From IMG/VR virus record IMGVR_UViG_3300036832_000455, positions 1-64,000 of that record: a DNA stretch of 64,000 nt, one strand, 5' to 3'. The stretch comes from a virus. The stretch's first letter is position 1. Every line of letters begins with the position of its first letter. The notes under the pieces are model-generated. The model saw nothing but the letters and a program-made list of their open reading frames with translations, searched no databases and was not told the origin of the DNA. Positions 11,499 through 63,293 of the stretch are shown here, piece after piece. Position numbers and translations under genes: made by a program.

Positions 11499-13319
11499 TT
11501 ACTCCCGAGCTGTACTGCTGGTGTTGCCAGGGGCTCCGGTTGTGCTGGGAGTTGCGAATCCTGGCCCTTGACGACCTCCTCCGCCTTTCCCTCTGCCGGG
11601 ACCTCCACCCACGTCCGGATTTGGAGATCCAGGACCACCGAGACCGGCTGTGGCTTGACCTGCCAGTGCCCCCACGGCATCAGGCCCAGTGAGGGCCCCA
11701 ATTGGGACATATCCGCTAGTTGTGGCGAGCATTGGCTGCTCTGCAGCGTCACCCATGGGGAGCTTTCCTCGCTCCTTGCGGACCTCGTCAATCGAAAAGA
11801 TTCCGGCTTTAACATATCCTGTATCTATGTCCATCTGGGCTTTCGGATCTTGCTCGCGGTCTTCAAGAAACACGAACTCTAGCTCAGGATGACCGAGGTC
11901 AAACCTGATGATCATATCGATCAGGCCCTTCCACCACCTCTGGCTAGGGAGCAGACCTTCTTCCAGAGCACGGCTTCGAGCAGTACCAGCCGTAGCACGA
12001 TTGAGGTGAGTGACGAACGGCTCGGGAGAGATGGAGAAGATGAAGCAGATGACTCGAGCAAGCCATTCATCATAGTCGTCCTTCAGAGGCGGCTCTTTGG
12101 TCTCCACGTACTTGAACTGGCCGGGCATGAACCGTACTTTACGCCGGTTCATCAAGTTGCCTGACATCAGCCCGTCGAACCACGACTGGAAGTCTCTGAT
12201 GTTCTGGAGAGTCCACGCTTCGGGTAACCCAACAAAGGCATCTGGAGTGGAACCTGTCAAGTAATAGTCGAGCTGGTAAACTGCTCGTCTGATGGCGGTG
12301 TTAACTGTGATAACGACCTGCTCAACGGGAGAATGACCGTACACTTTGTCTGTTCTGATGTTCCTCGGCATGTACAGAAGTTCGGACGCAGTATAGTCTG
12401 TTGCTGGGACGCCGTGGAGGATCTGCTGGTAAGATGGTTCTCCAGGATCTGTAGGCCGACGGCCATTAGCATCAAGAAGGGGAAAGATAGTGGCCCCATC
12501 AATAGGCTCGAGAGCATAAAGGTCCCCACCGCGGGTCATCCGCTTATAAATAGTTGCAGCGTCAATGACGAACATGTCTTCGTTAACACAGCGCATCCAC
12601 TGATCCCATGTATGCTCCTTATCGGGATACATGAAGAAGTCAGTGACCTCTCTGATATGCTGCTTGACCTCAGGATCAAGCTTCAATGTGTTCAGTTCGG
12701 ATCTTTGGACGCTTGCTGGTCTGTTCCCCGTTGTGGGGAGTCCGAATTGCCCTGGTTGAGCCGGTTGACCTGGTCGCCCTTGTTGAGGTGGCTGACCTTG
12801 CTGCGGGGATCCGTTGGGCCCAAACGCCTTAGCTGCTGCCCCATTCTGACGACGCTGCCCGGGCCTACTTGGGGCTCCGTCTCCGTTCCCGTTAGCGGAC
12901 TCGAGACCGTCGTCGTCTCCTGGGATATCGGACTCACCGCCCTCTTGACCAGCCGATTGACGAGGACGGATAGCCCAGTCGAGTGCTGCGATCTGATCCT
13001 TTCGGGCCTCAATGACCCCCCTGAGGATGTCGCAGTTCGAAGCCAGTGCCCTAAGGTCGGCAAAGCTGATCGCCTCCTGCGTGCGGGGGTTGTAGTTGAG
13101 GTTGTATCCCGTCTGGTAATCAAACCGACGTCCCTTGGTGCCTTCCTCTTCACTCTGCTGTGTGAAGGGCTGAAGAGGTTGCCATGGACCGAACCAGTTC
13201 TGTGGGCCTACCCCGCTGACTATGAAGCGAGTAGCGGACTTCACCCGTTGTATGAAGTTAGGTACAACAGGATTGATAGCTCCTACCGGCCCTGAGGGCC
13301 CTACTGGCAAGCTAGGCAA
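11499..13319 (-). CDS. Portal protein
   Basis: This 606-residue protein is the portal, the dodecameric ring through which DNA enters the head. Recognisable segments: LNYNPRTQEAISFADLRALA and CDILRGVIEARKDQIAALDW at the N-terminus; IREVTDFFMYPD; WMRCVNEDMFVIDAATIYKR; PVEQVVITVNTAIRRAVYQL; and the clip/stem area MPGQFKYVETKEPP with AGTARSRALEEGLLPSQRWW. Residues ~125-205 are an unusual Gly/Pro/Gln-rich insertion that interrupts the conserved region, and the C-terminal ~60 residues are Gly/Pro-rich. It lies upstream of protease and capsid genes, downstream of the lysis genes. Confidence 0.9.
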   Translation of the reverse strand: MPSLPVGPSGPVGAINPVVPNFIQRVKSATRFIVSGVGPQNWFGPWQPLQPFTQQSEEEGTKGRRFDYQTGYNLNYNPRTQEAISFADLRALASNCDILRGVIEARKDQIAALDWAIRPRQSAGQEGGESDIPGDDDGLESANGNGDGAPSRPGQRRQNGAAAKAFGPNGSPQQGQPPQQGRPGQPAQPGQFGLPTTGNRPASVQRSELNTLKLDPEVKQHIREVTDFFMYPDKEHTWDQWMRCVNEDMFVIDAATIYKRMTRGGDLYALEPIDGATIFPLLDANGRRPTDPGEPSYQQILHGVPATDYTASELLYMPRNIRTDKVYGHSPVEQVVITVNTAIRRAVYQLDYYLTGSTPDAFVGLPEAWTLQNIRDFQSWFDGLMSGNLMNRRKVRFMPGQFKYVETKEPPLKDDYDEWLARVICFIFSISPEPFVTHLNRATAGTARSRALEEGLLPSQRWWKGLIDMIIRFDLGHPELEFVFLEDREQDPKAQMDIDTGYVKAGIFSIDEVRKERGKLPMGDAAEQPMLATTSGYVPIGALTGPDAVGALAGQATAGLGGPGSPNPDVGGGPGRGKGGGGRQGPGFATPSTTGAPGNTSSTARE

Positions 13320-14993: not shown

Positions 14994-15233
14994 TCAAGTG
15001 TGACCAAGATTTCGCACGATCAGCCCTCCCATCGGATCGCACACCAGATCCTCTAGGCTTTCACTGAAGGCTTCGAACTCGTGGACGTTCAGTGGCCGTC
15101 CGTCTTTGAAGGCTTCTCTCATGGCGTGCCATGCCTTCAATCCAGTAACGTTACCTGCAAGCGCCGCATCAACTACTGTGACTACTTGCCACGTACATAC
15201 AAGACCGTGCACGTTAGGACCTAATGATCCCAT
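14994..15233 (-). CDS. Small hypothetical protein overlapping terL end
   Basis: The frame is open from 15320, but a start there would overlap terL by more than 100 bases. ATG 15233 (GGGAG ~14 bases upstream) or ATG 15254 gives 79 or 86 residues. The product has a hydrophobic N-terminal half (VCTWQVVTVVDAALAGNV) and an acidic helical end (VHEFEAFSESLEDLVCD). No family recognised. Start choice is uncertain. Confidence 0.5.
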   Translation of the reverse strand: MGSLGPNVHGLVCTWQVVTVVDAALAGNVTGLKAWHAMREAFKDGRPLNVHEFEAFSESLEDLVCDPMGGLIVRNLGHT

Positions 15234-17229
15234 GAGAAACACCACTACTCCCATGGCCTCTATCCATGTACGGTCCGCGAATTGTGGTACGAGCCCGCTC
15301 GCGTGCAATCTCCTCTGCATGTTTCAGTTCGTCTCTGTAGAAGTGAAGGAAACCTTGACCCGCTACGTTCGGCTGTGCGAACGCATTGATCACAGCGTCA
15401 CCCTTATCGGGGGAGCGACCAAGTCGCTCCTTCACCTTCTTCTTGTCTTCTACCTGAATGCCTCTAACAGTGAGAGCCCACCTAGGAGCAGCAAGATCAG
15501 CAGCCAACTCACTATCTGGGGGTATAGCGATCTCCAGGCCAAGTGAAGGATCCAATGCCTCTCTGAAAAGCCAGAACCATTCCGAGCGCGCATTGGTGAA
15601 ACTCAAGGTCCCCGATCGATCCGTCGCGATGGACTTATCTGCCCCGTTCATTGCCACAACGTCGATGCCCGCGAGCTTCCCGACGTCGACCGGTGAGGAT
15701 CCGACCCCAACGACGTCGATCTTGACTCGCCAGTCAGCGTACCCGAATTCTCTGACCTTTGCAATGACAGCCGGACCATCAGGAGTGTCAACGCCAGGTA
15801 CAAGCTTAAGAGTAGCAAACCAACTGCCACGTCTCTCGCTAAAGACCGTCTTATCACGGCCCCCACGAGACACGTCAACCCCCACATCCCTAGAACCAGG
15901 AAGATCGGCGCTAAAACCCTTAGTAATGTCCAGATTGCCGTAGACATTGTAGTTCAGCTTCTTCTGGTCATCACTCAGCAAGACAGACGTGTCTACACCA
16001 ACTCCTGCCTGCTGGAAAAACTCGTCCAAGGTTCTCGGCTGAGCCTTTGGGATGTTAAGGTCAGGTAAGTCGTCCGGCTTCAGCTCTCGCTTCGGTTCGC
16101 TCGGTTCCTCGAGTTTGGGCTCTTCTACTATTGTGTTATTATTGTTAGAATGCCCCTTAACGGCGGAAGAAACAGATCCAGATCCGCGGAGCGGTCCGGA
16201 GAGGGGGGACGAGCTCCCAACGGCGTTTGTTGGATCCGATGGGTTTATTGCGGCTTTTCTACTGATCAGCTTGAGAAGGTACTGTTCATAAGTAGGAGCC
16301 CAGCGACTCTGCGCAGCAAGGATCCAAGCCGTTGGGATCACTTGCCAACGATCGTCATCTTCGCCGATCCCAAAGTCGCCTTGCAGCATTCGAGAGCGCA
16401 GAGGCTCGGGCAGCGCCTGCAGGATGCTTATGTATCCTGAGGACATCAGGAAGGGATTATCCTGAATGCGGGCGCGAATGAAAGTCCGGCTTCGGGGGAA
16501 GATCTCGGTCTCCTGACCGTTGATCTCCATGTATATAGGGTCGGGCGAGCTAACTTCCATATCATCACCGTCACTATTGGTGATGAACCACCTCAACTCC
16601 CCGGGAAGGGCGGGATCGGGGTGGCTCGGATTTAGCCAGGGCGCCCAATAGTCAGCGACCCATTGTCCTTCAGCCGTAGTTGGCGGGTTGCCGCACGCTA
16701 TGACTCTAGTGCGATAAAACTTGCCTGTGGAGGGGTCTATCTTGGTAGTACGGTTCCATCCGGTGAGGAACTTGTACTGCCGCTTCGTGAAGTGGGTGAC
16801 TTCGTCGAAGCCCTTGAGGTCGTGAGGTCGTCCCTGGTACTTCTGCTCATCGCCCTCAAACTGGCAAGCACCGAATTCAATCGTGCGACCGTCCTTGAAT
16901 CTCCAAGTCCAGTCCGAGCCATTGTACTTGCCGATGTCATAGTAGAGCTCGTTGCTCCTATCCTTGATGCCCTTCAGCTGTTGGAACTCTCGGCGGAACA
17001 CGATAGTGCGCCAATGGTTCTGTAGTCCGGTTCCGAGGAGCAGGTCGGTTTTACCTCCCCCAGCGGCCCCGCCATAGAAGAGCTCATCAGCTTCGCTCGA
17101 GAAGGCTGCTGACTGTGGACCGGGCAGTGGTGTCCACACGGGTACTTCAATGTCGCTCAACAGTCCGTCGAGCTCAGCGAGCTCGGCTGGCGTGAGATGT
17201 TGGAGCAGCTGACTGAGTTCGCTGGCCAT
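15214..17229 (-). CDS. terL: Terminase large subunit
   Basis: The packaging motor, 671 residues. The ATPase domain carries Walker A (YGGAAGGGKTD, ~52-62) and Walker B (PHDLKGFDEVTHF, ~135-147), with CGNPP near residue 179 as coupling motif. The nuclease domain starts near residue 450 (VGVDVSRGG, metal-binding Asp) and ends with DKGDAVINAF. Residues ~325-445 are a polar low-complexity insert (Ser/Asn/Pro/Glu-rich) between the two domains, unusual for the family. The start overlaps the upstream stop as TAATG, so it is translationally coupled to the terS candidate. Confidence 0.93.
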   Translation of the reverse strand: MASELSQLLQHLTPAELAELDGLLSDIEVPVWTPLPGPQSAAFSSEADELFYGGAAGGGKTDLLLGTGLQNHWRTIVFRREFQQLKGIKDRSNELYYDIGKYNGSDWTWRFKDGRTIEFGACQFEGDEQKYQGRPHDLKGFDEVTHFTKRQYKFLTGWNRTTKIDPSTGKFYRTRVIACGNPPTTAEGQWVADYWAPWLNPSHPDPALPGELRWFITNSDGDDMEVSSPDPIYMEINGQETEIFPRSRTFIRARIQDNPFLMSSGYISILQALPEPLRSRMLQGDFGIGEDDDRWQVIPTAWILAAQSRWAPTYEQYLLKLISRKAAINPSDPTNAVGSSSPLSGPLRGSGSVSSAVKGHSNNNNTIVEEPKLEEPSEPKRELKPDDLPDLNIPKAQPRTLDEFFQQAGVGVDTSVLLSDDQKKLNYNVYGNLDITKGFSADLPGSRDVGVDVSRGGRDKTVFSERRGSWFATLKLVPGVDTPDGPAVIAKVREFGYADWRVKIDVVGVGSSPVDVGKLAGIDVVAMNGADKSIATDRSGTLSFTNARSEWFWLFREALDPSLGLEIAIPPDSELAADLAAPRWALTVRGIQVEDKKKVKERLGRSPDKGDAVINAFAQPNVAGQGFLHFYRDELKHAEEIARERARTTIRGPYMDRGHGSSGVSHGIIRS

Positions 17230-19014: not shown

Positions 19015-19209
19015 ATGGATTACAACATCGATTATGAGATCCCCGTAACCGAAAAGGACGTGAATCTCGAAATTGGAAATTTGACCACGATGAGTTCAAA
19101 AATTCGATATCTTTCAGAAAAAGGTTATACCCGTTCCCAAATTGCAAAACAGTTAAATATTCGGTATCAGTGGGTCAGAAATGTTCTGATCACACCAATA
19201 AAGAAGTAA
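19015..19209 (+). CDS. Mini-HTH protein A
   Basis: ATG 19015 (TGGAGA 9 bases upstream) is chosen over GTG 19000; the product is 64 residues. After YEIPVT comes a helical unit SSKIRYLSEKGYTRSQIAKQ followed by LNIRYQWVRNVLITPIK: a probable helix-turn-helix in which YTRSQIAKQLNI is turn plus second helix and RYQWVRNVL the recognition helix. It is a close paralogue of the protein at 19522-19716 and a more distant one of those at 20290, 23325 and 37108. The gene is AT-rich, unlike its paralogue. Location in the divergent control region, operators and its own terminator suggest a transcription regulator. Confidence 0.8.
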   Translation: MDYNIDYEIPVTEKDVNLEIGNLTTMSSKIRYLSEKGYTRSQIAKQLNIRYQWVRNVLITPIKK

Positions 19210-19521: not shown

Positions 19522-19716
19522 ATGTCTTACGAAGTCAATTACGAGATCCCCGTCACCGCCGCGAGCGTTGGGGAGGAAATCGCCGCCCTTTCCACAACAA
19601 GCGCCAAAATCCGCTACCTTGCGCAAAAAGGGTACAACCGCGCGCAAATCGCGCGTACCCTCAACATTCGTTACCAGTGGGTCAGAAACGTGCTGATCAC
19701 GCCCGTAAAGGGCTAA
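19522..19716 (+). CDS. Mini-HTH protein B
   Basis: ATG 19522 follows AGAAAGG by about 8 bases; the product is 64 residues. Over its whole length it parallels mini-HTH A: NYEIPVT, then AKIRYLAQKGYNRAQIARTL, then NIRYQWVRNVLITPVKG. Despite nearly the same protein, its codons are GC-rich (many gcg, cgc, ccg) while those of A are AT-rich, so the two copies probably have separate histories. It has its own promoter, two operator-like repeats and three consecutive hairpin terminators. Function as a DNA-binding regulator is inferred. Confidence 0.8.
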   Translation: MSYEVNYEIPVTAASVGEEIAALSTTSAKIRYLAQKGYNRAQIARTLNIRYQWVRNVLITPVKG

Positions 19717-27655: not shown

Positions 27656-27904
27656 ATGAGTAAGAACAGGATCACGCACGACGACATAGCGAGAATGCCG
27701 CCTCACATACAGGCGCAGATCGCCAGTAAGATGGCGGAGCAGAACTCAAGTCTTCCAGCACCAAGAAGGGCAAAAGGGCATGGAGCACATGGACCCGCCT
27801 TCAAGGTCCAGCTGACGAAAGTACACTACATAAGCTTCGGTGCGTACTGCAGCCTACTGGTCGGGATTGCCATAATGCTCATGGCTACGTTTCCTACACA
27901 CTAG
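27656..27904 (+). CDS. Small protein with C-terminal membrane anchor
   Basis: Eighty-two residues: a helical start (RITHDDIARMPPHIQAQIA), a basic, Gly/His-rich linker (RRAKGHGAHGPAFKV) and one C-terminal hydrophobic helix (~residues 59-78, FGAYCSLLVGIAIMLMATF). A tail-anchored topology is suggested. Function unknown. Confidence 0.6.
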   Translation: MSKNRITHDDIARMPPHIQAQIASKMAEQNSSLPAPRRAKGHGAHGPAFKVQLTKVHYISFGAYCSLLVGIAIMLMATFPTH

Positions 27905-29587: not shown

Positions 29588-30301
29588 ATGTATCGAGGTA
29601 TGTTACTCGCTGCTACTGCACTGGGGGTCTTGGCTATGACTCCCATAGCAGCACGGGCCGGTACGATGCAGATCTGCGTAGCAGAAGACGGTGGAGCCTT
29701 TGGCTGCTCCGCCACAAGCAGCACGGGAGCGCTCACTTTCAGCCCGTCGCTTGCCAACTTCGGCAACGTAACTGTCGCAAGCTCGGGAGTTCCGATCGAG
29801 AACAATCCCGATCTGGCAACGACTGACTTGAGTGCAGACACGATCACCGGATTCACAGGGACACACACCCTTGACATCCGGGTCTTCCAGACAGGACTGA
29901 CCTCGGTGAACGCGAATCTTCAGAGCACGTTCACTGTCAACAACCTGATCGGTACCAGCGCGTTTGCGGGGCCATCTACTCTGAGCGACTTTACTGGAGG
30001 GTCGGGTACCAGCCTCGGCAATCCGCTCCACAGTGATACGTTCGGAGCCGTGCCTATCGGAGCCACGATCGAAGGGCCTACCCTGATCAACGGCATCACG
30101 TCGGACGCTCAGGAGTTCCTTGTCACCTTCACTCAGGCTGGACAAAGCGTGACTGACACGATCCAGACGATTGGGGTGGCAGCAGCGGTTCCTGAGCCGG
30201 GAAGCATGATGATCCTTGCTACTGGAGCGCTTGGCCTCTTGTGGGCCAGGAAGTCCGGACGTAAGATCTTCAAGCGGGACGACACGACTACAAACGCTTG
30301 A
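29588..30301 (+). CDS. PEP-CTERM sorting-signal secreted protein 1
   Basis: AAGGAG lies about 9 bases before the ATG. The 237-residue protein has a signal peptide (residues 1-24, ending PIAARAG), a Ser/Thr/Gly-rich beta-type mature part (~25-200), and a complete PEP-CTERM tail: VPEPGSM, a hydrophobic helix (MILATGALGLLWA) and a basic end (RKSGRKIFKR). PEP-CTERM proteins are processed by host exosortase and exported to the surface or exopolysaccharide matrix. No exosortase gene is seen here, so it would depend on the host. Such a protein in a phage genome is very unusual. A second, different PEP-CTERM gene follows. Confidence 0.8.
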   Translation: MYRGMLLAATALGVLAMTPIAARAGTMQICVAEDGGAFGCSATSSTGALTFSPSLANFGNVTVASSGVPIENNPDLATTDLSADTITGFTGTHTLDIRVFQTGLTSVNANLQSTFTVNNLIGTSAFAGPSTLSDFTGGSGTSLGNPLHSDTFGAVPIGATIEGPTLINGITSDAQEFLVTFTQAGQSVTDTIQTIGVAAAVPEPGSMMILATGALGLLWARKSGRKIFKRDDTTTNA

Positions 30302-30314
30302 GACAACTGATGAG

Positions 30315-30338
30315 GTCCGAGGCTGAAATGCCTCGGAC
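30315..30338 (+). terminator. Hairpin between the two PEP-CTERM genes
   Basis: GTCCGAGGC-TGAAAT-GCCTCGGAC, a 9-bp stem, then TTC. Weak T-run; it may set the ratio of the two genes. Confidence 0.5.
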
Positions 30339-30366
30339 TTCAACCACACAAAAGGGATACGTTACT

Positions 30367-31137
30367 ATGAGACACAACGTACTGCTGAGCACGGTCGCTG
30401 CAGTGGCTCTGATGACAGTCGGGGCGGCTACAACTGCAACTACAGCCAACGCTACTATCATCTTCGATCCGAATCCTGGTCCAGCTCTGCCAGGCCAAGA
30501 AGAGAACGTCATCTTCGAAGCCCCCGATCTGATTCCCGGTACCACCCAGATCGGCGATACGAACAGGACGCAGACCAACGTCATCTTCGACACTACCTTC
30601 GCCAAAGGGACGGGCTCCATGGGCGGGTCGGGCACCGGGCAGTTCCTCGTCGCGGATGGCATTGGTCATGCCAACCTCGTCTGCACTACGGGCGGTACTG
30701 CTTGCTTCGACGGTGGTGGCACGCACAACACGCAGCTTACGTCGCTGGAGATGAAGCCCGAAGCCGGCTTCGGATGGGGCGACGCTCAGATGAACCTGGA
30801 CTTCGGTGAGGGAACAGCGAACGTCTTCGTCACCGACAACATGGGGAATAACTTCTCGTTCACCTTGGGTAACGGACAGAATAAGTTCAATCTGCTTGGA
30901 ACCAACGGTGAGGTAATCACCGACATCCAAGTCACTCAGCTTACCGGCAGCAGCGGCCCCTTCGGCTTCGACATGCTGAAGCAGCCGGATATCTCCAACG
31001 TCTGCACACTGACTGGCAACGGCACCTGCACGCCGATCATCGCCACTCCGGAGCCAACTAGCCTAGCGGTGATGGGCGTAGGGCTTCTGGGTCTGACGTT
31101 CTTCGCTCGACGCAGGCGTGATCGTAACCAAGGGTAA
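30367..31137 (+). CDS. PEP-CTERM sorting-signal secreted protein 2
   Basis: ATG 30367 is chosen because it opens a clean signal peptide (RHNVLLSTVAAVALMTVGAA, cut near TANA-T); upstream in-frame ATGs at 30298 and 30328 would bury it. The 256-residue protein has a Gly/Thr/Asn-rich mature domain with two Cys pairs (CTTGGTAC and VCTLTGNGTC) and a canonical end: TPEPTSLAVM, a hydrophobic helix (GVGLLGLTFFA) and RRRRDR. It shares architecture but little sequence with the preceding protein. Likely exported and anchored or released by host exosortase. Confidence 0.8.
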   Translation: MRHNVLLSTVAAVALMTVGAATTATTANATIIFDPNPGPALPGQEENVIFEAPDLIPGTTQIGDTNRTQTNVIFDTTFAKGTGSMGGSGTGQFLVADGIGHANLVCTTGGTACFDGGGTHNTQLTSLEMKPEAGFGWGDAQMNLDFGEGTANVFVTDNMGNNFSFTLGNGQNKFNLLGTNGEVITDIQVTQLTGSSGPFGFDMLKQPDISNVCTLTGNGTCTPIIATPEPTSLAVMGVGLLGLTFFARRRRDRNQG

Positions 31138-31157
31138 CCAATGTAACTAGCGTAACT

Positions 31158-31198
31158 GGGTATGCCGTCTAGCTCCCCGGACGGCATACCCACCTTTA
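31158..31198 (+). terminator. Terminator after PEP-CTERM pair
   Basis: GGGTATGCCGTC-loop of 10-GACGGCATACCC, a 12-bp stem, followed by ACCTTTAG. Confidence 0.65.
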
Positions 31199-31213: not shown

Positions 31214-31483
31214 ATGTCACCAGAGGAGTTCAACCATCGCTCGATCATATCCAACATAGGGTCGAAGTACCCTATCCGCTCGTCACAGTACAAGCACTCG
31301 AGGGAGTATGACTACCGTAACCACAACCACAGCTGGTCTAAGCACGACAGTGACGAGGAGGATAGGGACCCACTTCATCTTCGCGTCGCCCGTGGAGTAT
31401 TCTCCTCGGTCCTGTTCGTTATACCGATGTGGTTAGCACTTGCTCTGCTCGGCTGGATATGGCACAAGATCAATTTTCTTTAG
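31214..31483 (+). CDS. Small protein with C-terminal transmembrane helix
   Basis: Eighty-nine residues with GGGAGAG upstream. A polar His/Ser/Tyr/Asp-rich N-terminal ~60 residues (YDYRNHNHSWSKHDSDEED) and a single hydrophobic helix near the end (FSSVLFVIPMWLALALLGWI). Its position just after the PEP-CTERM pair might imply a related envelope role. No family recognised. Confidence 0.58.
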   Translation: MSPEEFNHRSIISNIGSKYPIRSSQYKHSREYDYRNHNHSWSKHDSDEEDRDPLHLRVARGVFSSVLFVIPMWLALALLGWIWHKINFL

Positions 31484-47134: not shown

Positions 47135-47857
47135 ATGATGACGACAAGGGCGTACGTACTGCATAGCGGGGGTGTCGACAGCAGCACCGCTCTAGCGATG
47201 GCCTTAAAGTCACCAGCCGAAAAGGTCATCAGCGTCTCGATCAACTACGGTCAGCGTCACTCAAAAGAGATCGCCTATGCCAAGAGACTATGCGAACATC
47301 TTAATGTTGAGCATATGACGGTCGATATGGCACCGCCCCCAAAGTCCATGCTCACGGATCCATCATCAGCCGTCCCCAAGATGTCGTACGCCGAAATCCA
47401 AGGCATGTCTCCTACTTATGTCCCATTTCGTAACGGCCAACTCTTATCGCGCATAGCTGGCATCGCTCAGGGATGGGTGATGGGAGAAGGCCAAGAGTGG
47501 GATGAGGAGCGCAATGCCACAATTTGGTTTGGAGCGCATGCGGAAGATGCACAGAACTGGGCGTATCCTGATTGCACGCCAGAGTTCATAGGGTCGATGG
47601 CCAGTGCAATCTACATTGGTACATACCACAAGGTACGACTGGTCGCTCCGTTCCAGCATATGACGAAGGACGAGATCGTCGACGTAGGTGACAGAGTGCT
47701 CAAGATCCCATACGAGATGACTTGGAGCTGCTACAAGGGAGAGGAGCTTCATTGTGGTACATGCCCAACATGCATCGCTCGCAAGGAGGCCTTCCACAAA
47801 GCTGGCGTATACGATCTCACCCAGTACGCTGACGCACAACACCTTCAGCTTGATTGA
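47135..47857 (+). CDS. queC: 7-cyano-7-deazaguanine (preQ0) synthase
   Basis: QueC converts 7-carboxy-7-deazaguanine to preQ0 with ATP and ammonia. The 240-residue sequence has the PP-loop SGGVDSST (~11-18), SINYGQRHSKE, PFRNGQLLS, and the C-terminal zinc site CYKGEELHCGTCPTC. No glutamine amidotransferase domain is fused, unlike Gat-QueC of phage 9g. With queD, queE and folE downstream it makes a full preQ0 route. No QueF is present, so the expected base is preQ0 or a derivative rather than preQ1. Confidence 0.92.
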   Translation: MMTTRAYVLHSGGVDSSTALAMALKSPAEKVISVSINYGQRHSKEIAYAKRLCEHLNVEHMTVDMAPPPKSMLTDPSSAVPKMSYAEIQGMSPTYVPFRNGQLLSRIAGIAQGWVMGEGQEWDEERNATIWFGAHAEDAQNWAYPDCTPEFIGSMASAIYIGTYHKVRLVAPFQHMTKDEIVDVGDRVLKIPYEMTWSCYKGEELHCGTCPTCIARKEAFHKAGVYDLTQYADAQHLQLD

Positions 47858-48002
47858 GGTCAGCTGGTCAGCACCACCGCCTAAGAGCTGCTACTTTCCA
47901 TCACGCGCCGCCGCTGTAGAGACAGTGGCAGCTCTGTGGAGCGAAGGTGGAATGTCACTAGAGGGGGCATGGAATGTCGTACAGTATCCGCCGGACAATT
48001 GA
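47850..48002 (+). CDS. Small protein between queC and queD
   Basis: A frame of about 50 residues overlaps the end of queC and the start of queD. No ATG is near its beginning; TTG 47850 is the best guess and lacks an SD, so the start is uncertain. The sequence (SWSAPPPKSCYFPSRAAAVE, then LWSEGGMSLEGAWNVVQ) looks like a real folded domain with a Pro/Ser turn and a helix, not random coding. It could be an accessory of the deazaguanine pathway. Confidence is limited by the missing start. Confidence 0.45.
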   Translation: MIEVSWSAPPPKSCYFPSRAAAVETVAALWSEGGMSLEGAWNVVQYPPDN

Positions 48003-48513
48003 GATCGACATGGGCCATCGTGTGCATACACATGGCAGCAAGTGCTGGAACTTACACGGACACAGATACGTCATCGAAGCAGAAGTCCGCTCAATCGAGC
48101 TCCAACATCAAGGCCACCAGACAGGGATGGTAATGGACTTCGGCTTCCTGAAAGAGTTCATGATGCAGCAGATCCACAACTTCTGCGACCACGGGCTCTG
48201 CATGAGTATTGACGATCCTTGGCTAGCTCGGATGCTCCCCTTTTCGTCCCACCTATACGATAGGGCAAAAGAAGTAGTAGCGTCGGAAGGCTGGTACCAC
48301 GTTGAAGAGCACCGTAAGGATAACCAGACTAAGCTCTTGATCATACCGTTCATCCCTACGGCTGAGAACCTAGCAGAGTTCTGGTTCAAGCGGCTGAAAC
48401 TGCCCATTACACAATATCATCCCAACGTCACTCTGGAGAAGATGTACGTATGGGAGACGCCCAATAGTGTGGCGATATACCCTACTCGAGCAACCCCGTA
48501 TGCAGAGGTATGA
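47974..48513 (+). CDS. queD: 6-carboxytetrahydropterin synthase
   Basis: QueD forms 6-carboxy-5,6,7,8-tetrahydropterin from dihydroneopterin triphosphate, the second step to preQ0. Motifs in the 179 residues: MGHRVHTHGSKCWNLHGHRY (zinc His and catalytic Cys), MVMDFGFLKEFM, FCDHGLCM (in place of LDH..LN) and PTAENLAEFWF. An insert of ~25 residues between the DH motif and the end makes it longer than most QueD. Overlaps the preceding small frame and ends one base before queE. Confidence 0.9.
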   Translation: MSYSIRRTIEIDMGHRVHTHGSKCWNLHGHRYVIEAEVRSIELQHQGHQTGMVMDFGFLKEFMMQQIHNFCDHGLCMSIDDPWLARMLPFSSHLYDRAKEVVASEGWYHVEEHRKDNQTKLLIIPFIPTAENLAEFWFKRLKLPITQYHPNVTLEKMYVWETPNSVAIYPTRATPYAEV

Positions 48514-48514
48514 G

Positions 48515-49243
48515 ATGCCTGATAAGTTCCTCGTGTCCGAGATATTCGGACCTACCATACAAGGAGAGGGCGCGCTTATTGGGCAAACGAGCCATTTTGT
48601 CCGATTCGCAGGTTGCAGCTATCGCTGCATATGGTGCGACAGCATGCACGCTGTGGACCCAGATCTCATACACCAAACTGCGGAACGGCTCGACACGGAT
48701 GAGATCATAACGAGACTCAAAGACTTACCTAACTCCTACTTTGCCCAGTGGGTCACGCTGAGCGGAGGAGATCCAGTCCATTGGGATCTGGACGATCTGG
48801 TAAGCTTAATGCCGGACACTCTGAAGATAGCCGTAGAGACGCAAGGGGCGTTCTATAAGCCATGGCTCAGAGATTGTGAGCTGGTTACTTGTAGCCCTAA
48901 GCCACCATCCTCAGGTATGTCGAACCGAACCGACTACGCAGTCCTCGACGAATATGTCCATAAACTCGAGCGCCTGGTTTTCAAGGTCGTGATCTTTGAC
49001 GAGGACGATCTAGAGTTTGCCATACGCATTCACCTGAGGTATCCAAACACTCCGTTCTATCTTTCGTCTGGTACGCCAGTACACGATAATGAACGTAATG
49101 GGTTCCTCATGACCGAAGAAGTCATGGAACGATACCGATGGCTTGTCGAAACGTTACTGCGCATAGACTGCCGCGACCTGTGGGATGTTACAGTGCTGCC
49201 GCAGATGCACTCAATGATCTGGGGAAACAAGAAGGGCAAATAG
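48515..49243 (+). CDS. queE: 7-carboxy-7-deazaguanine synthase (radical SAM)
   Basis: ATG 48515 has AGAGG at 6 bases and follows the queD stop by one base; an upstream ATG at 48500 is also in frame. Two hundred and forty-two residues. QueE motifs: SEIFGPTIQGEGALIG, HFVRFAGCSYRCIWCD with the CX3CX2C radical-SAM cluster, VTLSGGDP, and VETQGAF. It makes 7-carboxy-7-deazaguanine, the QueC substrate. The next gene (folE) starts 11 bases after it. Confidence 0.92.
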   Translation: MPDKFLVSEIFGPTIQGEGALIGQTSHFVRFAGCSYRCIWCDSMHAVDPDLIHQTAERLDTDEIITRLKDLPNSYFAQWVTLSGGDPVHWDLDDLVSLMPDTLKIAVETQGAFYKPWLRDCELVTCSPKPPSSGMSNRTDYAVLDEYVHKLERLVFKVVIFDEDDLEFAIRIHLRYPNTPFYLSSGTPVHDNERNGFLMTEEVMERYRWLVETLLRIDCRDLWDVTVLPQMHSMIWGNKKGK

Positions 49244-49253
49244 GGAAACGAAC

Positions 49254-49856
49254 ATGCACGATCTTTTGGAAGACATGACTGATCTGCCACTGGACCTTGA
49301 GAGCATCGTCAGGCTGTTACTGAAGAAGACCTACAAGTACAAGCTCACATCGGAAGCGTACGAGAAGACCCCACAAAGGGTGCTACGGTACCTGCAGGAG
49401 TTCAACCAGGACTTCGACGTAACCCAAGTACTGGGAGAGATGTTCGAAGGCCCTATGGTTGAGGGCATCCATGGACTTGTCGTGCAAAGTAATATCCCGT
49501 TCCGAATGATGTGCGAGCACCATTTACTCCCGGCAACTGGTAGTGCCTACCTGGGCTACATCCCAGACGGTCAAGTCGTGGGCTTATCAAAGCTAGCACG
49601 ACTAGTCGACGCGGTCGCAACTCACAAGCCTAGCATGCAGGAGAGGATCTGCGAGGAGATTGCCAACATCCTCGACAAACACACCCATGCAAAGGGGGTC
49701 ATCTGTGTTATTGATTCCATGCACACTTGTATGGCTTGCCGCGGCATCAATACACCTGAAGTGGTCTCCACCACCTCCTGCGTGCGAGGGGTGTTTCGAG
49801 ACGTGCCAGCTGCTCGTAGCGAGTTCTTCAGCATCATCAACCGAGCCAGAAAGTAG
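49254..49856 (+). CDS. folE: GTP cyclohydrolase I
   Basis: The first enzyme of the preQ0 pathway, GTP to dihydroneopterin triphosphate. Two hundred residues: the substrate and zinc motifs MMCEHHLLPATGSAYLGYIP, GLSKLARLVD, HTCMACRGIN and the end SEFFSIINRARK. Adjacent FolE-QueD-QueE-QueC form a complete, self-contained pathway from GTP. The order is conserved in several phages with deazaguanine DNA. Confidence 0.93.
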   Translation: MHDLLEDMTDLPLDLESIVRLLLKKTYKYKLTSEAYEKTPQRVLRYLQEFNQDFDVTQVLGEMFEGPMVEGIHGLVVQSNIPFRMMCEHHLLPATGSAYLGYIPDGQVVGLSKLARLVDAVATHKPSMQERICEEIANILDKHTHAKGVICVIDSMHTCMACRGINTPEVVSTTSCVRGVFRDVPAARSEFFSIINRARK

Positions 49857-54076: not shown

Positions 54077-55156
54077 CTACTCGGTACAGACCCAGAGCCA
54101 GCCATCTCCAACTGGCGGCAGCGCCAGAGATACCCAGTGCTCAAGAGATGCTTGGGTCATTCGTATGTCACGTCGGACTGGGGTGGTCCAATGCTCCAGA
54201 GCTGCCTGGGTCATCATCTCAAAGGTGACCGTAATGATCGGTCCCCACTGCTCGAGGGCTGTCTGAGTCAACCAGACATTAAGTGTGCTAGAACTACCAC
54301 CCCACTGCTCAAGAGCTGCCTGTGTTAGCTGAACACTCCGTACTGATGGTGTGTACCAGTGCTCGAAAGATGCTTGTGTCAGCCAGACCTGAGTACTAAG
54401 CGATGGGACGAGAGACCACTGCTCAATAATCATCTGAGTCAGCTGAACATTAACACCGGTCGCTAGAGGACCGATCCACTGGTCGACTGCAATCTGCGTT
54501 AGGTTAGCTGTAGGTGTAGGATTCGTCCCCCACTGGTCAACTACAAACTGAGTACCTATCTCGTAGGTAGGAGGAGTAGCACCTGAAGTAAAGCCGCTAG
54601 TAAAACCGGCTGGGACCGCTCCGACGAATGCAGTGTCACCAAAGTTAGCCGTAACACTAAACGTAGCAGCTGCTGTAGTACCTACCCATCCATAAAGCGG
54701 TCTTGCTCCGGCGATTGGAGCGATCGAAAATCCGCCTACGCCTGTCGCAGGGTTAGCTGCAGCACTACCATTCCAGTTACCAGAAGGGGCTACTCTAAAC
54801 CAGATCAGATTGTTGGTAAGGTCAAGAGCTATGCCAGTGACGTCGCCGTTTGTCCGAGCTCCAATCGACCCCAGAGAGGTAGCGTTGTTGACAGTAATAG
54901 CACCGTTAATGTTGGTAATAGTACTGTTGACGCCACTAGCTGCGTTCGTCGACAGGACGGCAGCTGCGTTGGCTAGGCCAGCCCCGGCAGAAGCTATCCA
55001 TGTAGTATGGGTGTACTCGAAGTAGAACTTACCTGTAATGTTACGATCTAGAGTACGGACGCCTCCTGCAGCCGTAGCGGCCGACACAGTGAGGTTATTA
55101 GTCCCACTGAGGGTGACGTTTAATCTGTCCGTAGTACTCCAGGTAGTGTTGGCCAT
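54077..55156 (-). CDS. SPRY-like domain protein with TQxxxEQW repeats
   Basis: In this 359-residue protein the N-terminal ~190 residues look like a SPRY/lectin-type beta sandwich (GKFYFEYTHTTWIASAGAGL, IALDLTNNLIWFRVAPSGNW, RPLYGWVGTT). Residues ~195-345 hold eight imperfect repeats, about 18-20 residues each, with core LTQAALEQW or LTQIAVDQW; the last is MTQASLEHW. Similar TQ..vE repeat tails occur in phage tail proteins. Last gene of the tail operon, so a receptor-binding or tail-fibre role is likely. Confidence 0.65.
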   Translation of the reverse strand: MANTTWSTTDRLNVTLSGTNNLTVSAATAAGGVRTLDRNITGKFYFEYTHTTWIASAGAGLANAAAVLSTNAASGVNSTITNINGAITVNNATSLGSIGARTNGDVTGIALDLTNNLIWFRVAPSGNWNGSAAANPATGVGGFSIAPIAGARPLYGWVGTTAAATFSVTANFGDTAFVGAVPAGFTSGFTSGATPPTYEIGTQFVVDQWGTNPTPTANLTQIAVDQWIGPLATGVNVQLTQMIIEQWSLVPSLSTQVWLTQASFEHWYTPSVRSVQLTQAALEQWGGSSSTLNVWLTQTALEQWGPIITVTFEMMTQAALEHWTTPVRRDIRMTQASLEHWVSLALPPVGDGWLWVCTE

Positions 55157-55170
55157 CGGGCTTTAACGAC

Positions 55171-56643
55171 TTACGACGTGACTATGGGGCCGGCTTGGAT
55201 AGCATTCAGAGCGGGGCCAGTCCAAGCAGCCCCTGTATTAGGATCGTTGATGTCAGATCGCCACAGCCATTGGAATCCAGTACCCAGAGCTGTAGGGGTC
55301 GATTGAACGGTAGTAGATCCGCTCCTGAGTTGGACAGCAGCTCCTCTTGTCCCAGCGTCACTCTTCTCAACGAACCCTCTAGTGGTCACTAGGATAGCTG
55401 CTGGAATAGGAGCTGTTCCAAACCCGTAGAAGTCGACATCACCTACGTTCGAGTCATAGACGTACGTTGCGGTACCGTCCTGTTGAGCTTCGTTGACGTA
55501 TTCGCAATTCAAAGTTGCGGTAACAGTAACTGTAGATACCTTCATGTTGGCAGAGGCAAGAGCATTTGCAGTGAGGGTACTAGGTGGGAAGCTAGCATAC
55601 GCCACTGTAGCTGAATACAAATTATTAAGGGTCTGTACGTTAAACGTAATTGTAGCGTCTTGGTCGAACGCGAGCCAGTAGGTCTGACCTGCAGTCACAG
55701 ATAGAGGAGGTGTGAATGTTACGGTATTAATACCGGCAACCGGGTTAGTAGTCTCGCTAGAGGTTGCAAGTAAGACGTTTCTAGTACTGTCATATATTGC
55801 AGCTTTTACATGCCCTGTGGCAGCGCTGGGCACAGCGAAAGTTGCACTTCCAATGGTCCCTGTATGTGATACCGTAAATGGAGCTGCTATCAAAGCGCCA
55901 GCTGCCTGAGCAGCCTGTGTTGAGAGGACCGCTACATTAACGCTAACAGTAGGTGGACTTGCGGCGAATTGCTTGCTTACGTCACTAACAGGCATTCGTG
56001 TGTAGCACCTGATATCACCGACCCACGGCACAGCGGTAGGATCACTTCTCCAGAGGAGATCGTCGATCTGCTGGAAGTTAGCTCCTGGATTCCCAGGCAT
56101 TCCGATAGTCAGTCGGTTGGCGTAGTTGTTGGTGGATCCAGCTCGAGTGTTTAGATTAATTGCCTGGAAGTCGTTAACATTATTGCCGTTACGGCGGACC
56201 GTGATCGAGCCCGCAGTATTGTGGATGACGACCTCTATTTCATAGGCGATCCAAATGTTGCCGGCGGTTACTGCTGTCGGCCACTGGACAAGTATGGTGG
56301 GAGTTGTAGTCATAGCTCCGGACGCAAGGAACATACGACCGTTGCCGTCAAATGCCACGAAGCATTGAGCGCTAGCACCGTCGTTAAGCTGGAAACACGC
56401 AGAAACAGAGGTGTTGCCCAGTGAGGCGTTCTGATAGAAGCCAAATACCAGGTGGTGGACGCTATCGTTGTTGCCAGAGCTCTTCACTAGTTGACCTCCC
56501 TGAAAAGAGGTCAGACCACATGCCCTGCTGCCAGTAAATCTACCAGTGGTCAGTGCAGTGAACCCGGAACCGCTGTCCCAATAACCGGCGAGAGCATCAG
56601 CCGGGACGGCATAGCTGTCGAAGCCATCTCCAAACATGTACAT
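55171..56643 (-). CDS. Tail fibre/receptor-binding protein, paralogue 1
   Basis: Its 490 residues parallel those of the next gene: start MYMFGDGFDSYA, a concanavalin-like N-terminal domain (SVHHLVFGFYQNAS, WIAYEIEVVIHNTAGSITVR), a shared hinge LLWRSDPTAVPWVGDIRCYT, and a C-terminal beta domain (TYVYDSNVGDVDFYGFG; GFVEKSDAGTRGAAVQLRSG). The inner segment (~230-380) differs between the two. Lectin-like fold and position suggest surface binding to host glycan; not proven. Confidence 0.7.
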   Translation of the reverse strand: MYMFGDGFDSYAVPADALAGYWDSGSGFTALTTGRFTGSRACGLTSFQGGQLVKSSGNNDSVHHLVFGFYQNASLGNTSVSACFQLNDGASAQCFVAFDGNGRMFLASGAMTTTPTILVQWPTAVTAGNIWIAYEIEVVIHNTAGSITVRRNGNNVNDFQAINLNTRAGSTNNYANRLTIGMPGNPGANFQQIDDLLWRSDPTAVPWVGDIRCYTRMPVSDVSKQFAASPPTVSVNVAVLSTQAAQAAGALIAAPFTVSHTGTIGSATFAVPSAATGHVKAAIYDSTRNVLLATSSETTNPVAGINTVTFTPPLSVTAGQTYWLAFDQDATITFNVQTLNNLYSATVAYASFPPSTLTANALASANMKVSTVTVTATLNCEYVNEAQQDGTATYVYDSNVGDVDFYGFGTAPIPAAILVTTRGFVEKSDAGTRGAAVQLRSGSTTVQSTPTALGTGFQWLWRSDINDPNTGAAWTGPALNAIQAGPIVTS

Positions 56644-56660
56644 GTCTCTGACTCCTACTG

Positions 56661-58148
56661 CTACGATACTACGGTAGGACCGATCTGGACGCTATTGACA
56701 GCTGTTGAAACCCAGGGTGCCCCGGTATTCGGGTCGTTAGCATCTGTGCGCCATATCCATCCCCAGTTAGTGCCGAGGAAGATAGGAGTGGCCTGAACAG
56801 TAGTAGCACCGCTCTTCAGCTGGATGGAACCTGTCTTAGCTCCAGCGTCCGACTTCTCGAAGTACCCTCTGACTGTGGTACAGACCGTACTAGCCGGCGT
56901 ACCAGGTAACCCCGAAATCCCGTAGAAGTCCGCATCTCCTGGAAGATTATCGTACACGTAGGTAGTAGTTGCATCTTGCTGCGGTTCAGATACCAGACTG
57001 TAATTTCCAGCTGTAAGGTTAATAACGCCTCCAGGACAAGAAGCGGCACTACCCAGCGGGTATGTTGGAAGTGCTGGATTAGCTACGGGGAAGGTTGCGT
57101 AAGGCATTGGAAAGTTCACAGCTCCAAACGTAGTGTTGTTGAATGGCAAGTTAGCTAACGCAGCATCTGAGCAGAAAGCCAGAAAGTAGTAAGTGTTAGG
57201 AGTGAGAGTAGGAGCGGTCGTGAAGGTAAAAGTATTGGTACCTAATACCAGACCTGTAAGAGGGTTAGAGGTTGCTACTACAGCTCCTGGTCCTCCGTTC
57301 GGCCCGGTAGTGTCATAAATCGCAGCCATGACATGACCTGCAGAGGTAGCGGCCGGCGTAAGAGTCGCCGACTGCAATACTCCTCCTCCAGCAGTCAGGA
57401 ACCTCTGACACTGAAGGCAATTGGCGTTCAGACCAACGACGCTCCCTGAGCCCATGTTTACGGCTATGGTACTGACGTTCTTGCTAAACTGAACTGACTG
57501 GTCTGACGCTGGCATCCTCGTATAGCACCGAATATCCCCTACCCAAGGTACGGCCGTTGGATCGGAACGCCACAAGAAGTCGTCTATGATCCAGGTCGGT
57601 CCTCCAGCCGTTTGAGCTCCTATCTGGATCCTGTTCGCATAGTTGTTAGCTGTACCACCTCGAGTGTTCAAGGCGGTAGCTGTAAAGTCGTTAGAGGTAT
57701 TACCGTTCTTTCGGACTGAAATACTACCTGCTGTGTTGTGGACCACCACCTCTATCTCGTACGCATTCCAGTTGTTTATACCTGTTATGGCTGTCGGCCA
57801 GGTAGCAATAACAGTACCCCCTATGCCCCCTGAGAGTAGGAGTAGCGCACCATCACTTCTGAATTCTACCGTACACTGAGCAGCACCAACATCGCTAATC
57901 TGTATGTACATTCCTATGTTAGTGCCTGATAGAGCAGTAGTATGGTCGTATGCGAACACGAAGTGATGGACGGAGTCATTGCTGTTACTGCTCTTTACCA
58001 ATCCTGCAGTGTTACCACCGTACTGTAGACCCCTGGAGCCTACAAATCTACCCGGGACTATTGCAGGACCTACAGCAGAGTCCCAGTACCCTGCCGCAGC
58101 ATCGCCTACAGCTGAGTACAGGTCGAAGCCGTCACCGAAGTAGTACAT
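56661..58148 (-). CDS. Tail fibre/receptor-binding protein, paralogue 2
   Basis: This 495-residue tandem paralogue of the gene at 55171 is similar in the N-terminal ~215 residues (FGDGFDLYSAV, HHFVFAYDHT, WNAYEIEVVVHNTAGSISVR, LWRSDPTAVPWVGDIRCYT) and the C-terminal ~90 (TYVYDNLPGDADFYGISG), and differs in the middle. This pattern fits duplication followed by divergence of the exposed part. It follows the tail tip gene, where fibres are expected. Confidence 0.7.
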   Translation of the reverse strand: MYYFGDGFDLYSAVGDAAAGYWDSAVGPAIVPGRFVGSRGLQYGGNTAGLVKSSNSNDSVHHFVFAYDHTTALSGTNIGMYIQISDVGAAQCTVEFRSDGALLLLSGGIGGTVIATWPTAITGINNWNAYEIEVVVHNTAGSISVRKNGNTSNDFTATALNTRGGTANNYANRIQIGAQTAGGPTWIIDDFLWRSDPTAVPWVGDIRCYTRMPASDQSVQFSKNVSTIAVNMGSGSVVGLNANCLQCQRFLTAGGGVLQSATLTPAATSAGHVMAAIYDTTGPNGGPGAVVATSNPLTGLVLGTNTFTFTTAPTLTPNTYYFLAFCSDAALANLPFNNTTFGAVNFPMPYATFPVANPALPTYPLGSAASCPGGVINLTAGNYSLVSEPQQDATTTYVYDNLPGDADFYGISGLPGTPASTVCTTVRGYFEKSDAGAKTGSIQLKSGATTVQATPIFLGTNWGWIWRTDANDPNTGAPWVSTAVNSVQIGPTVVS

Positions 58149-61115: not shown

Positions 61116-61117
61116 TG

Positions 61118-61702
61118 TTAGTTCGCTCCGTACTTCTCGCGCAGACGAGCCCAGATGTCGAAGAACTTAGTAGGCCGAGGAGACTTACCATCCCTCAGAT
61201 AGCATAGCCACGAAGCACTCAACATCTCAGGGAACGTAACCCTGTGCAGAGATGACGCCTGCATGACCTTATGCTCGTCTAACACAATGCCGCCGTGTGA
61301 AAAGCATCTACCGAACCTCCACAGCACAATGTCTCCTGGCTTGGGCCTCTCTACTTCCACGGCCATTTCGTTCAGCCAGCCGAGGTACCGTTCTGTTCCT
61401 ACATGTAGGTGCCAATCAGGAGAGTACGGTCTAGGATCGAAAGGCTTGAAGATCCCTGCGTCTACCCAGCACCTTACTAGGAGCATTGAGCAGTCGACAC
61501 AACCTTTCGGTCCCTTGATGTCGCCTTGCTGCCTGTAGGGGGTCTTATCCCACGACCAGGCTTCCTTCAAGATCGCCAAGCGTTGGACCCGTTCGACTTC
61601 TGCAGTCACAGGTATAGTAGCCGGTTCTACATCAGGCATGAAGGGGTCGGTAACATGAGGGTCAAATACCGCATCAGGCGGTGCTATTCCGATTCGTGCC
61701 AT
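61118..61702 (-). CDS. Tail-associated NlpC/P60 peptidase
   Basis: ATG 61702 (GGAGAC upstream, just after the preceding gene's stop) is used instead of an ATG at 61828 lying inside that gene. One hundred and ninety-four residues. Catalytic residues: Cys in GPKGCVDCSMLLVRCW, His in FSHGGIVLDEHK, with a Pro/Gly turn KPGDIVLWRF. NlpC/P60 peptidases at the tail tip cut peptidoglycan during DNA entry. Order DUF2163, NlpC/P60, tail tip is that of GTA-like tails. Confidence 0.85.
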   Translation of the reverse strand: MARIGIAPPDAVFDPHVTDPFMPDVEPATIPVTAEVERVQRLAILKEAWSWDKTPYRQQGDIKGPKGCVDCSMLLVRCWVDAGIFKPFDPRPYSPDWHLHVGTERYLGWLNEMAVEVERPKPGDIVLWRFGRCFSHGGIVLDEHKVMQASSLHRVTFPEMLSASWLCYLRDGKSPRPTKFFDIWARLREKYGAN

Positions 61703-61715
61703 CAGTTTGTCTCCG

Positions 61716-62579
61716 TTAGATCGAGAACGTTGCAGGTGGGATGTACGGGAAGCCTCTGAAGTTCTGCAGATTGTTAAAGAACGCGCAGCCATGAGACCCT
61801 CTGGTTTTATCACACCCAAACGTTGCACTGAACGTATCTCCTGGGTTCGGCTGAGTATACAGCATTGACGCTAATACCACTCCATCAAAGCCGCAATTCG
61901 TTATAGACCTCCTCTGCCCTACAGCTGCACCCGAATTGAACGTGGCAAACCCATCCTTAAACTGCAAAGCCAAACCGCCGGTAGGATCGCTCGTCCAAAA
62001 GATCTTGAGACGATCTGCGTGGTCGACTGTAGCAGTCCAAGTAAAGGCGCTTGCCAATCTGGTACACCCTACCGAATACAAGGGCCAGATGCAGTTAAGT
62101 TCGTATCTGTTCTTCGGCATCTGTTGGAGCATCTTGGCGTTGCGGCTATTCCATGTTACTTGAACACCTCTAGCCCCTCCAGATACTTTCCCTCCTACTC
62201 CGAACCACAGGTCCACAAGGCCTAACGATGTGTCACCAGGAGTAGGCATAACGGCTCGTTGCAGCCAGATCTCGCTATTGTCAAAGAAGCCATTGTGGAT
62301 CATCTGCTTGATATTGCCTGGACCGTAATCTTGGCCGCTAGAGGCAATGCTCATATCCATCGTGCTAACTTCCAGGTCGTTCTTGATCGACCAAGAAGTC
62401 CTGGTTAGCAAAGGTCCTTGAGCATACCAGGTGTCGGATCCGAACGAGATGTTCTGGTCGAAGCTGGTGATGAATATCCACTGGTTGTACAGTGGGGAAT
62501 AGATCTTGAAAAGATCAGCCATGTAGTATGGCTCTTTGCTGAGCAGGAATGCTACCATAGTGTTAGCTGCTGAGCGCAT
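61716..62579 (-). CDS. DUF2163 / BR0599-type tail protein
   Basis: This 287-residue protein has the DUF2163 N-terminal pattern (ADLFKIYSPLYNQWIFITSF, WYAQGPLLTRTSW, EVSTMDMSIAS) and the BR0599-like C-terminus (CIWPLYSVGCTRL; FGCDKTRGSHGCAFFNNLQN, FRGFPYIPP) with several conserved Cys. Family members are hub or baseplate components in siphophages and GTAs. Sits between DUF2460-like and NlpC/P60 genes. Confidence 0.85.
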   Translation of the reverse strand: MRSAANTMVAFLLSKEPYYMADLFKIYSPLYNQWIFITSFDQNISFGSDTWYAQGPLLTRTSWSIKNDLEVSTMDMSIASSGQDYGPGNIKQMIHNGFFDNSEIWLQRAVMPTPGDTSLGLVDLWFGVGGKVSGGARGVQVTWNSRNAKMLQQMPKNRYELNCIWPLYSVGCTRLASAFTWTATVDHADRLKIFWTSDPTGGLALQFKDGFATFNSGAAVGQRRSITNCGFDGVVLASMLYTQPNPGDTFSATFGCDKTRGSHGCAFFNNLQNFRGFPYIPPATFSI

Positions 62580-62593
62580 AACCTACCTGCCCC

Positions 62594-63289
62594 CTACCCC
62601 TTTAGGCTCATCAAAGTGCAGCGCTTGATAGTCCACAGTCGATTAAATACCTTCTCGAATTCCAGACTGTTATCCTTGAACCTTGTGAGGTAGTAAAAGT
62701 GGAAATCCATCTGGATCAGTACTCCGCTGCCTGGAGCACTAGCGAAATTCAGTACCTGACTGTACGGCGCAGTGGGATCAATTGCCCAAGTAGCGGGATC
62801 CTGAAGTGCTCCACCAAGGTACACATTGATAGGCTGCGAAGTGTTGACATAACCTACAGGCTCGACAGTAAAGAAGCCTCCTGCTCCGTACGCCCGAGTG
62901 ATAGCAAACGACTGAGTGGTTCCATCTCCGTAGGCTATGCCAGTACCCACGATGGAGTTGTCGTCATCATCCTCGAATAGGAAGGGCTGAAGCATTCCTA
63001 CTTGTCCATACAAGCCCATCAAGGTTTTGATGTCACTACTCGTCTTGCCAGCTTGCCACGGTCCCGAATCATCGGGCAAGTACTCGTAGGTAAGATCCCA
63101 CTCCCACATCGGGAACGTCCAATATGTCACACGCGACTCGCGACCGCTTGCTGCCTGTGATACGCCTGCTGCAGTAACAGGACGTTTGATCACACTGAAC
63201 GCTAGGTTCAACTTAGGGTAGATGATAGGCGAGAATGGTACCCTAGGAGCGGGAGATCCCGACGTCGGCCTTGCAATTACGCCACTCAT
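62594..63289 (-). CDS. DUF2460-like tail protein, copy 2
   Basis: Two hundred and thirty-one residues, paralogous to the right-edge gene: both have AAGVSQAASGRESRVTYW- and NAGVYQAASGREVRVKFW-type N-termini, a WEWDLTY segment, an acidic DDDD or DPDDN loop, a VEPVGYVNTS segment, and a LEFEKVFNRLWTIKRCTLMS-type end. DUF2460 proteins form part of the tail distal hub. ATG 63289 overlaps the TGA of a short Met-Val frame in the repeat before it. Confidence 0.8.
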   Translation of the reverse strand: MSGVIARPTSGSPAPRVPFSPIIYPKLNLAFSVIKRPVTAAGVSQAASGRESRVTYWTFPMWEWDLTYEYLPDDSGPWQAGKTSSDIKTLMGLYGQVGMLQPFLFEDDDDNSIVGTGIAYGDGTTQSFAITRAYGAGGFFTVEPVGYVNTSQPINVYLGGALQDPATWAIDPTAPYSQVLNFASAPGSGVLIQMDFHFYYLTRFKDNSLEFEKVFNRLWTIKRCTLMSLKG

Positions 63290-63293
63290 GGTA

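Follow-up and report, generated by a model that had tools for sequence, protein, structure and literature searches.

Two adjacent genes for PEP-CTERM proteins

The stretch of DNA analysed here (64,000 nucleotides, hereafter the window) covers positions 1 to 64,000 of a 67,273-bp virus contig from IMG/VR (IMGVR_UViG_3300036832_000455) and belongs to a tailed phage. Two consecutive genes on its plus strand, P1 and P2, are the subject of this report; they are listed below together with the hairpins associated with them and the landmark structural genes.

11499–13319, minus strand: portal gene
15214–17229, minus strand: gene for the large terminase (TerL)
29588–30301, plus strand: P1, type I PEP-CTERM protein of 237 aa (PF07589, TIGR02595)
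30311–30342, plus strand: strong hairpin in the gap that separates P1 from P2, 13-bp arms, 92% complementary
30367–31137, plus strand: P2, type II PEP-CTERM protein of 256 aa (PF07589, TIGR02595)
31157–31192, plus strand: perfect 13-bp inverted repeat at the end of the cassette, resembling a terminator but lacking a T-run
58149–63941, minus strand: tail genes

We term proteins type II when two cysteines occur within the 24 residues that precede PEP, and type I when there are none. P1 consists of a signal peptide (residues ~1–24), an all-beta mature region and the tail VPEPGSMMILATGALGLLWARKSGRK at residues 201–226, with no cysteine nearby, as in type I. P2 likewise combines a signal peptide (residues ~1–29) with an all-beta mature region; its cysteine pair, C213/C221, is positioned immediately N-terminal to TPEPTSLAVMGVGLLGL, and it terminates in the basic sequence RRRRDR. 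Read by eye, both N-termini are of the Sec type, with a basic n-region, a hydrophobic core and an AxA motif, and putative cleavage sites are found between AARA and G in P1 and between ANA and T in P2. In both proteins, the PEP motif is followed by 17–18 mostly hydrophobic residues and then by a K/R-rich end; low-confidence structure models place a C-terminal helix at residues 204–224 (P1) and 230–253 (P2). The tails score above the cut-offs of both PEP-CTERM models, with 28.2 bits for P1 and 26.9 bits for P2 against PF07589 (cut-off 20.7), and 16.7 and 20.4 bits, respectively, against TIGR02595 (cut-off 16). The first-pass annotation of this DNA had described two PEP-CTERM genes at 29588–31137 with signal peptides, complete tails and differing mature domains, and had named a PEP-CTERM model search as a check; this description is borne out by our data, except that the start of P2 has been moved. 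At the level of sequence, P1 and P2 are hence confirmed as exosortase-substrate (PEP-CTERM) proteins encoded by a phage. The open reading frame of P2 begins with a TTG codon at 30298; its true start is likely the ATG at 30367, because a relative of P2 (P0003, see below) opens with the identical residues MRHN and because the 13-bp hairpin lies upstream of this ATG.

The segment between the two coding regions (30302–30366) has a predicted folding energy of -26.6 kcal/mol (z -5.8), and the related phage G003 possesses a hairpin of different sequence at the equivalent position (z -3.9). A scan for sigma-54 promoter motifs yielded no excess of such motifs and none immediately upstream of P1 or P2, and a sigma-70 scan found no promoter-like site upstream of either gene. 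None of the known PEP-CTERM subfamilies (THxN, PepA, QFxxD, CCXG etc.) scored above its cut-off for P1 or P2; the best subfamily score was 28.4 bits against a cut-off of 85 (NF038125) and derived mostly from the C-terminal part. For the mature domains themselves, neither Pfam domains nor the PEP-CTERM subfamilies of NCBIfam gave a match above cut-off. AlphaFold models of the proteins are poor (mean pLDDT 47.6 for the P2 model, and 45.5), and the weak Foldseek match of the former to CBM29-like carbohydrate-binding modules (E 5e-4, TM about 0.25/0.4), which would fit a polysaccharide role, can serve as a lead only.

The genome around P1 and P2 is unmistakably that of a phage. Its plus strand carries replication genes for a helicase, an exonuclease, a Sak4-like protein and DNA polymerase A (polA). 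The tail-tip module on the minus strand (58149–63941) resembles its counterpart in the Rhodobacter gene transfer agent and comprises PF13550 together with Rcc01698_C, NlpC/P60, BR0599/phiJL001 Gp84 and two DUF2460 genes in tandem. Between the tail module and polA are two adjacent paralogues of 490 and 495 aa (55171–58148, minus strand; both phrog_2448) and a 359-aa protein (54077–55156), all three of which are possibly surface-binding tail proteins. An operon at 47135–49856 (plus strand) with genes for QueC, QueD, QueE and GTP cyclohydrolase constitutes a 7-deazaguanine pathway that probably serves DNA modification. Two near-duplicate proteins of 64 aa, starting with MDYNIDYEIPVT and MSYEVNYEIPVT, are encoded at 19015–19209 and 19522–19716 (plus strand), about 300 bp apart and upstream of the early region. 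Near the P1/P2 cassette, two small proteins with one apparent membrane helix each are encoded at 31214–31480 and 27656–27904 (plus strand); the former has no PHROG match.

Relatives, mature domain families and occurrence in phages

Scans of IMG/VR with P1 and with P2 as single proteins found nothing, and relatives were therefore sought through polA synteny and alignments. The polA scan provided 14 relatives. In one of them, G003 (IMGVR_UViG_3300047316_000072), whose polA is 79% identical, two PEP-CTERM genes stand in tandem at the syntenic position. The second of these genes exceeds the PF07589 cut-off, and the first, P0003, falls slightly under the cut-offs (19 versus 20.7 bits for PF07589; 15.5 versus 16 for TIGR02595). 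The cassette is absent from G004, G005, G010 and the Brevundimonas phage StAshley, all of them polA relatives that cover this region, and must consequently be dispensable. Among about 60 polA-related virus records, many of which are fragments, PEP-CTERM genes are present only in the window phage and G003. By DNA polymerase (38% identity), the nearest isolates are the Brevundimonas pondensis phages vB_BpoS-StAshley and MaInes. StAshley has the QueC-QueD-QueE order in common with the window phage, and the identical order extends to polA; it differs by the lack of any PEP-CTERM match and by additional genes for ribonucleotide reductase and thymidylate synthase.

Relatives of the two proteins are also found in more distant phages. 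In G015, a different phage of 102 kb, a tandem pair adjoins the terminase (TerL) gene, and its second protein is 50–53% identical to P2. The relatives of P2 comprise P0006 (53%), P0003 (about 40%) and proteins of L199 and L158, and the mature domain of P1 is homologous to the products of L158:416-1066 and L182:2779-3417 (39% identity). The L158 pair thereby possesses the same type I and type II mature domains as the pair of the window. Its type I gene (L158:416-1069) reads SEP where PEP is expected, and its partner keeps PEP; this may reflect drift or a changed exosortase preference. The two tails of the window would thus be more than chance matches: G003 has a tandem at the syntenic position, and homologues of either mature domain are found, with their tails preserved, in further phages.

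The mature domains group into shared families, namely the P4-like family A, which is the largest, the P5-like B, the P2-like C and the P1-like D. They are conserved between unrelated phages at 32–68% identity, and profile comparisons among A, B, C and D revealed no convincing relation outside the tail. Few positions are invariant in family C, and both cysteines and the PEP motif belong to them. The mature domain of P0003 is the homologue of that of P2 (41% identity), whereas its tail is P1-like (65% identity over 34 residues, compared with 30% to the P2 tail), and homology between the mature domains of P1 and P0003 was undetectable. P0003 thus combines a P2-like mature domain with a P1-like tail; it follows that the PEP motif is the point at which recombination brings mature domains together with sorting tails, and, as judged from these alignments, phages exchange the two parts there. 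That tails are kept across divergent mature domains implies that sorting matters.

A strict degenerate DNA pattern for tails of the type PEPxxLA##GxG##G matched at least 120 IMG/VR stretches, a lower bound because P1-type tails escape the pattern. The earlier view that phage-borne PEP-CTERM proteins are very unusual can consequently not be upheld. Almost all in-frame matches (84 of 85) are located at the C-terminus of an open reading frame, and the last one is cut off by the end of its contig (80 loci listed). Among the matches listed, 24 of the 49 records of at least 15 kb have a terminase as detected by the phrog_2 profile alone, a profile that misses the G015 terminase, which phrog_38 detects; recurrent neighbours of the PEP-CTERM genes are those for portal, major capsid, terminase, DNA methyltransferase and DNA polymerase. 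The pair-bearing contigs L201, L186, L164 and L158 encode tail-fibre, tape-measure or tail proteins. We reject host contamination as the source of the PEP-CTERM contigs since phage genes for heads, packaging and tails are present on many of them, frequently as direct neighbours of the PEP-CTERM genes. Near the PEP-CTERM genes, L175:5306-6460, L186:3342-4511, L189:3489-4622 and L199:6802-8064 encode proteins with similar N-termini, two of which match the right-handed beta-helix family PF13229; one cluster of neighbours of this kind covers nine related phage loci, and these proteins are possible polysaccharide-active partners.

Searches of 50,697 phage records with P1, P2, P4, P5 and a solo type I protein from L167 returned no match, as did searches of 72,556 plasmids with P1, P2, P4 and P5. 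Used as a query against phages, the P2 tail yielded chance-level matches only (E of 5 or more). No account of phage-encoded PEP-CTERM proteins was found in the open-access literature.

Pairing of type I and type II proteins

Among the matches listed, and with duplicates merged and the window and G003 counted, there are 13 distinct tandem pairs from unrelated phages. Exactly one member of the pair carries the cysteine pair and its partner lacks cysteines in 12 of these 13, the exception being L155; examples of the pre-PEP cysteines are 'VCTLTGNGTCTPIIATPEP' in P2, 'TTCPDCVITPFVVDTPEP' in L201 and 'VDCPGCGITPVIVDTPEP' in L184. The member with the cysteine pair is encoded by the second gene in 11 of the 12 cases, and the order is reversed in G003. 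Among the matches listed, only 5 of 67 single genes have a cysteine pair. The corresponding P values (1e-9 by Fisher's test for pairs versus singles, 0.005 for label shuffling within pairs and 0.006 for the order) should be read with the knowledge that the rule was spotted in the same data and that the pairs are partly related by descent. Since the type II proteins include families without detectable shared homology of their mature domains, the cysteine motif goes with the tail and not with one particular fold. In a planctomycete MAG, taken as a distant control, the motif was present in none of 11 readable PEP-CTERM tails.

In five pairs (L158, G015, L201, L164 and L215), the start codon of the second gene overlaps the stop codon of the first, which suggests co-production of the two proteins. 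The pair is not obligatory, as the type I gene is solitary in many relatives. Taken from the arrangement and the motifs of the genes, the pair in the window is one case of a recurrent combination of type I and type II proteins that is newly recognised here.

Probable sorting by the host and a proposed role at the cell surface

In cells, PEP-CTERM proteins and exosortases connect the cell surface with exopolysaccharide (PMC12188702, PMC1569441). P1 and P2 have in common with the substrates of this PEP-CTERM/exosortase (EpsH) system (PF07589/TIGR02595) the signal peptide, the unrelated mature domains and the succession of PEP motif, hydrophobic helix and basic end. They differ in that they are encoded by phages without an exosortase gene, and in that type I and type II genes are frequently arranged in tandem, one of the two proteins having a pair of cysteines ahead of PEP. 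The MYXO-CTERM/myxosortase system (PMC11980579) is similar in that its C-terminal sorting tag is tripartite and includes a cysteine at the edge of the membrane; P2, however, retains the PEP motif, its cysteines are upstream of PEP and not within the tag motif, and its score against the MYXO-CTERM model TIGR03901 (15.3 bits) is under the cut-off of 20.

The record of the window encodes no exosortase above cut-off, in keeping with the first-pass annotation, and the same is true for 49 other PEP-CTERM-bearing virus records. An exosortase of the host must therefore serve, and sorting of P1 and P2 by such an enzyme is strongly implied. The host is probably an alphaproteobacterium, as Brevundimonas is the host of the nearest isolates (polA 38%, portal 46%) and the tail tip resembles that of a gene transfer agent. 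A scan of 84,980 cellular genomes with the family C pattern found no homologue of the P2 family, a second scan of these 84,980 genomes returned merely three MAG contigs with distant phage polymerases, and in a Planctomycetota sample matches were confined to the tail.

The paired, varied and beta-rich secreted proteins point to an action at the cell surface, and the recurrence of such genes, often as matched pairs, in dozens of sequences from uncultivated phages suggests that phages use the host exosortase to redecorate infected cells. For this surface role we infer a control of adsorption, with superinfection exclusion as the most plausible form. In our model, P1 and P2 would be made early and exported by the Sec system of the host, and their C-terminal helices would retain them in the inner membrane; the host exosortase would then cut at PEP and hand both proteins over to the outer surface or the exopolysaccharide layer. 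There, the type I and type II proteins would act jointly, with the cysteines of the latter perhaps forming a disulfide or another link at the anchoring end. The benefit would most likely be blocked adsorption of competing phages, with an altered attachment to the matrix next in likelihood. A point against early timing is that solo genes are often located in late structural modules and not among presumed early genes, so that timing may differ. A parallel in proposed function is Ltp, the superinfection-exclusion lipoprotein of Streptococcus thermophilus phage TP-J34 (PMC3952083), a phage protein that reaches the cell surface through a sorting pathway of the host; the likeness is drawn by function and not by sequence, the hosts of Ltp are Gram-positive, and its anchor is that of a lipoprotein and not an exosortase tag. 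We give an even chance to the view that P1 and P2 form a phage moron cassette whose products, displayed by the host exosortase on the envelope or exopolysaccharide, alter or mask the surface of the infected cell, most likely for superinfection exclusion.

Other readings of the cassette account for parts of these data. Flocs or biofilms might be strengthened, or attachment to exopolysaccharide improved, so that infected or carrier cells persist without any direct effect on other phages. Cellular PEP-CTERM proteins are indeed required for floc formation and for adhesion between cells and exopolysaccharide (PMC12188702, PMC9850573), and the weak resemblance of P2 to CBM29 modules would agree with such a moron. 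This resemblance, however, depends on the low-confidence model described above, and a non-exhaustive look at the window gave no sign of lysogeny and no integrase that would speak for a long-lived carrier state; we regard this explanation as unlikely. Abundant phage substrates could also act as decoys that saturate or block the host exosortase, thereby leaving the PEP-CTERM proteins and the exopolysaccharide coat of the host unbuilt and easing phage spread or release. Tails that stay intact while mature domains vary widely, and several mature domains that bear equivalent tails, would be expected from decoys; yet a decoy needs neither a large mature domain that is conserved across unrelated phages nor a rule for the pairing of type I with type II, and this makes the proposal rather improbable.

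The sporadic distribution of the cassette among polA relatives could be taken to indicate a recent capture of host genes without function. Against this stand the recurrence of the families across many phages, the absence of the family C pattern from the cellular species scanned, and the maintenance of pairing, translational overlap and intact tails, and such a capture is accordingly very unlikely. Least probable, in our view, is a late function in virion structure or envelope disruption, with a merely accidental resemblance of the proteins to PEP-CTERM substrates. The genes do adjoin portal, capsid or tail genes in many relatives, but a Sec signal combined with a C-terminal anchor for the inner membrane is unexpected in a virion part of a tailed phage, and in the window the genes are found in a region of small genes on the opposite strand, distant from the structural module.

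The surface-altering cassette may, more tentatively and with somewhat less than an even chance, represent a dedicated two-component, exosortase-dependent surface system of uncultivated phages, in which type I and type II proteins with interchangeable mature domains are co-produced, sorted by the host exosortase and linked to each other at the surface, thereby protecting the cell or reshaping its exopolysaccharide. If true, this would constitute a form of phage surface remodelling that has so far not been seen in cultured phages. The type I/type II cysteine rule provides a directly testable clue to the way in which exosortase substrates come to be joined there. Exosortase sorting has so far been described for cells that make exopolysaccharide. 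If phages routinely supply substrates for it, exosortase would count among the host factors that shape phage ecology where bacteria form biofilms, and superinfection-exclusion or matrix-modifying proteins could be drawn from the repertoire of mature domains.
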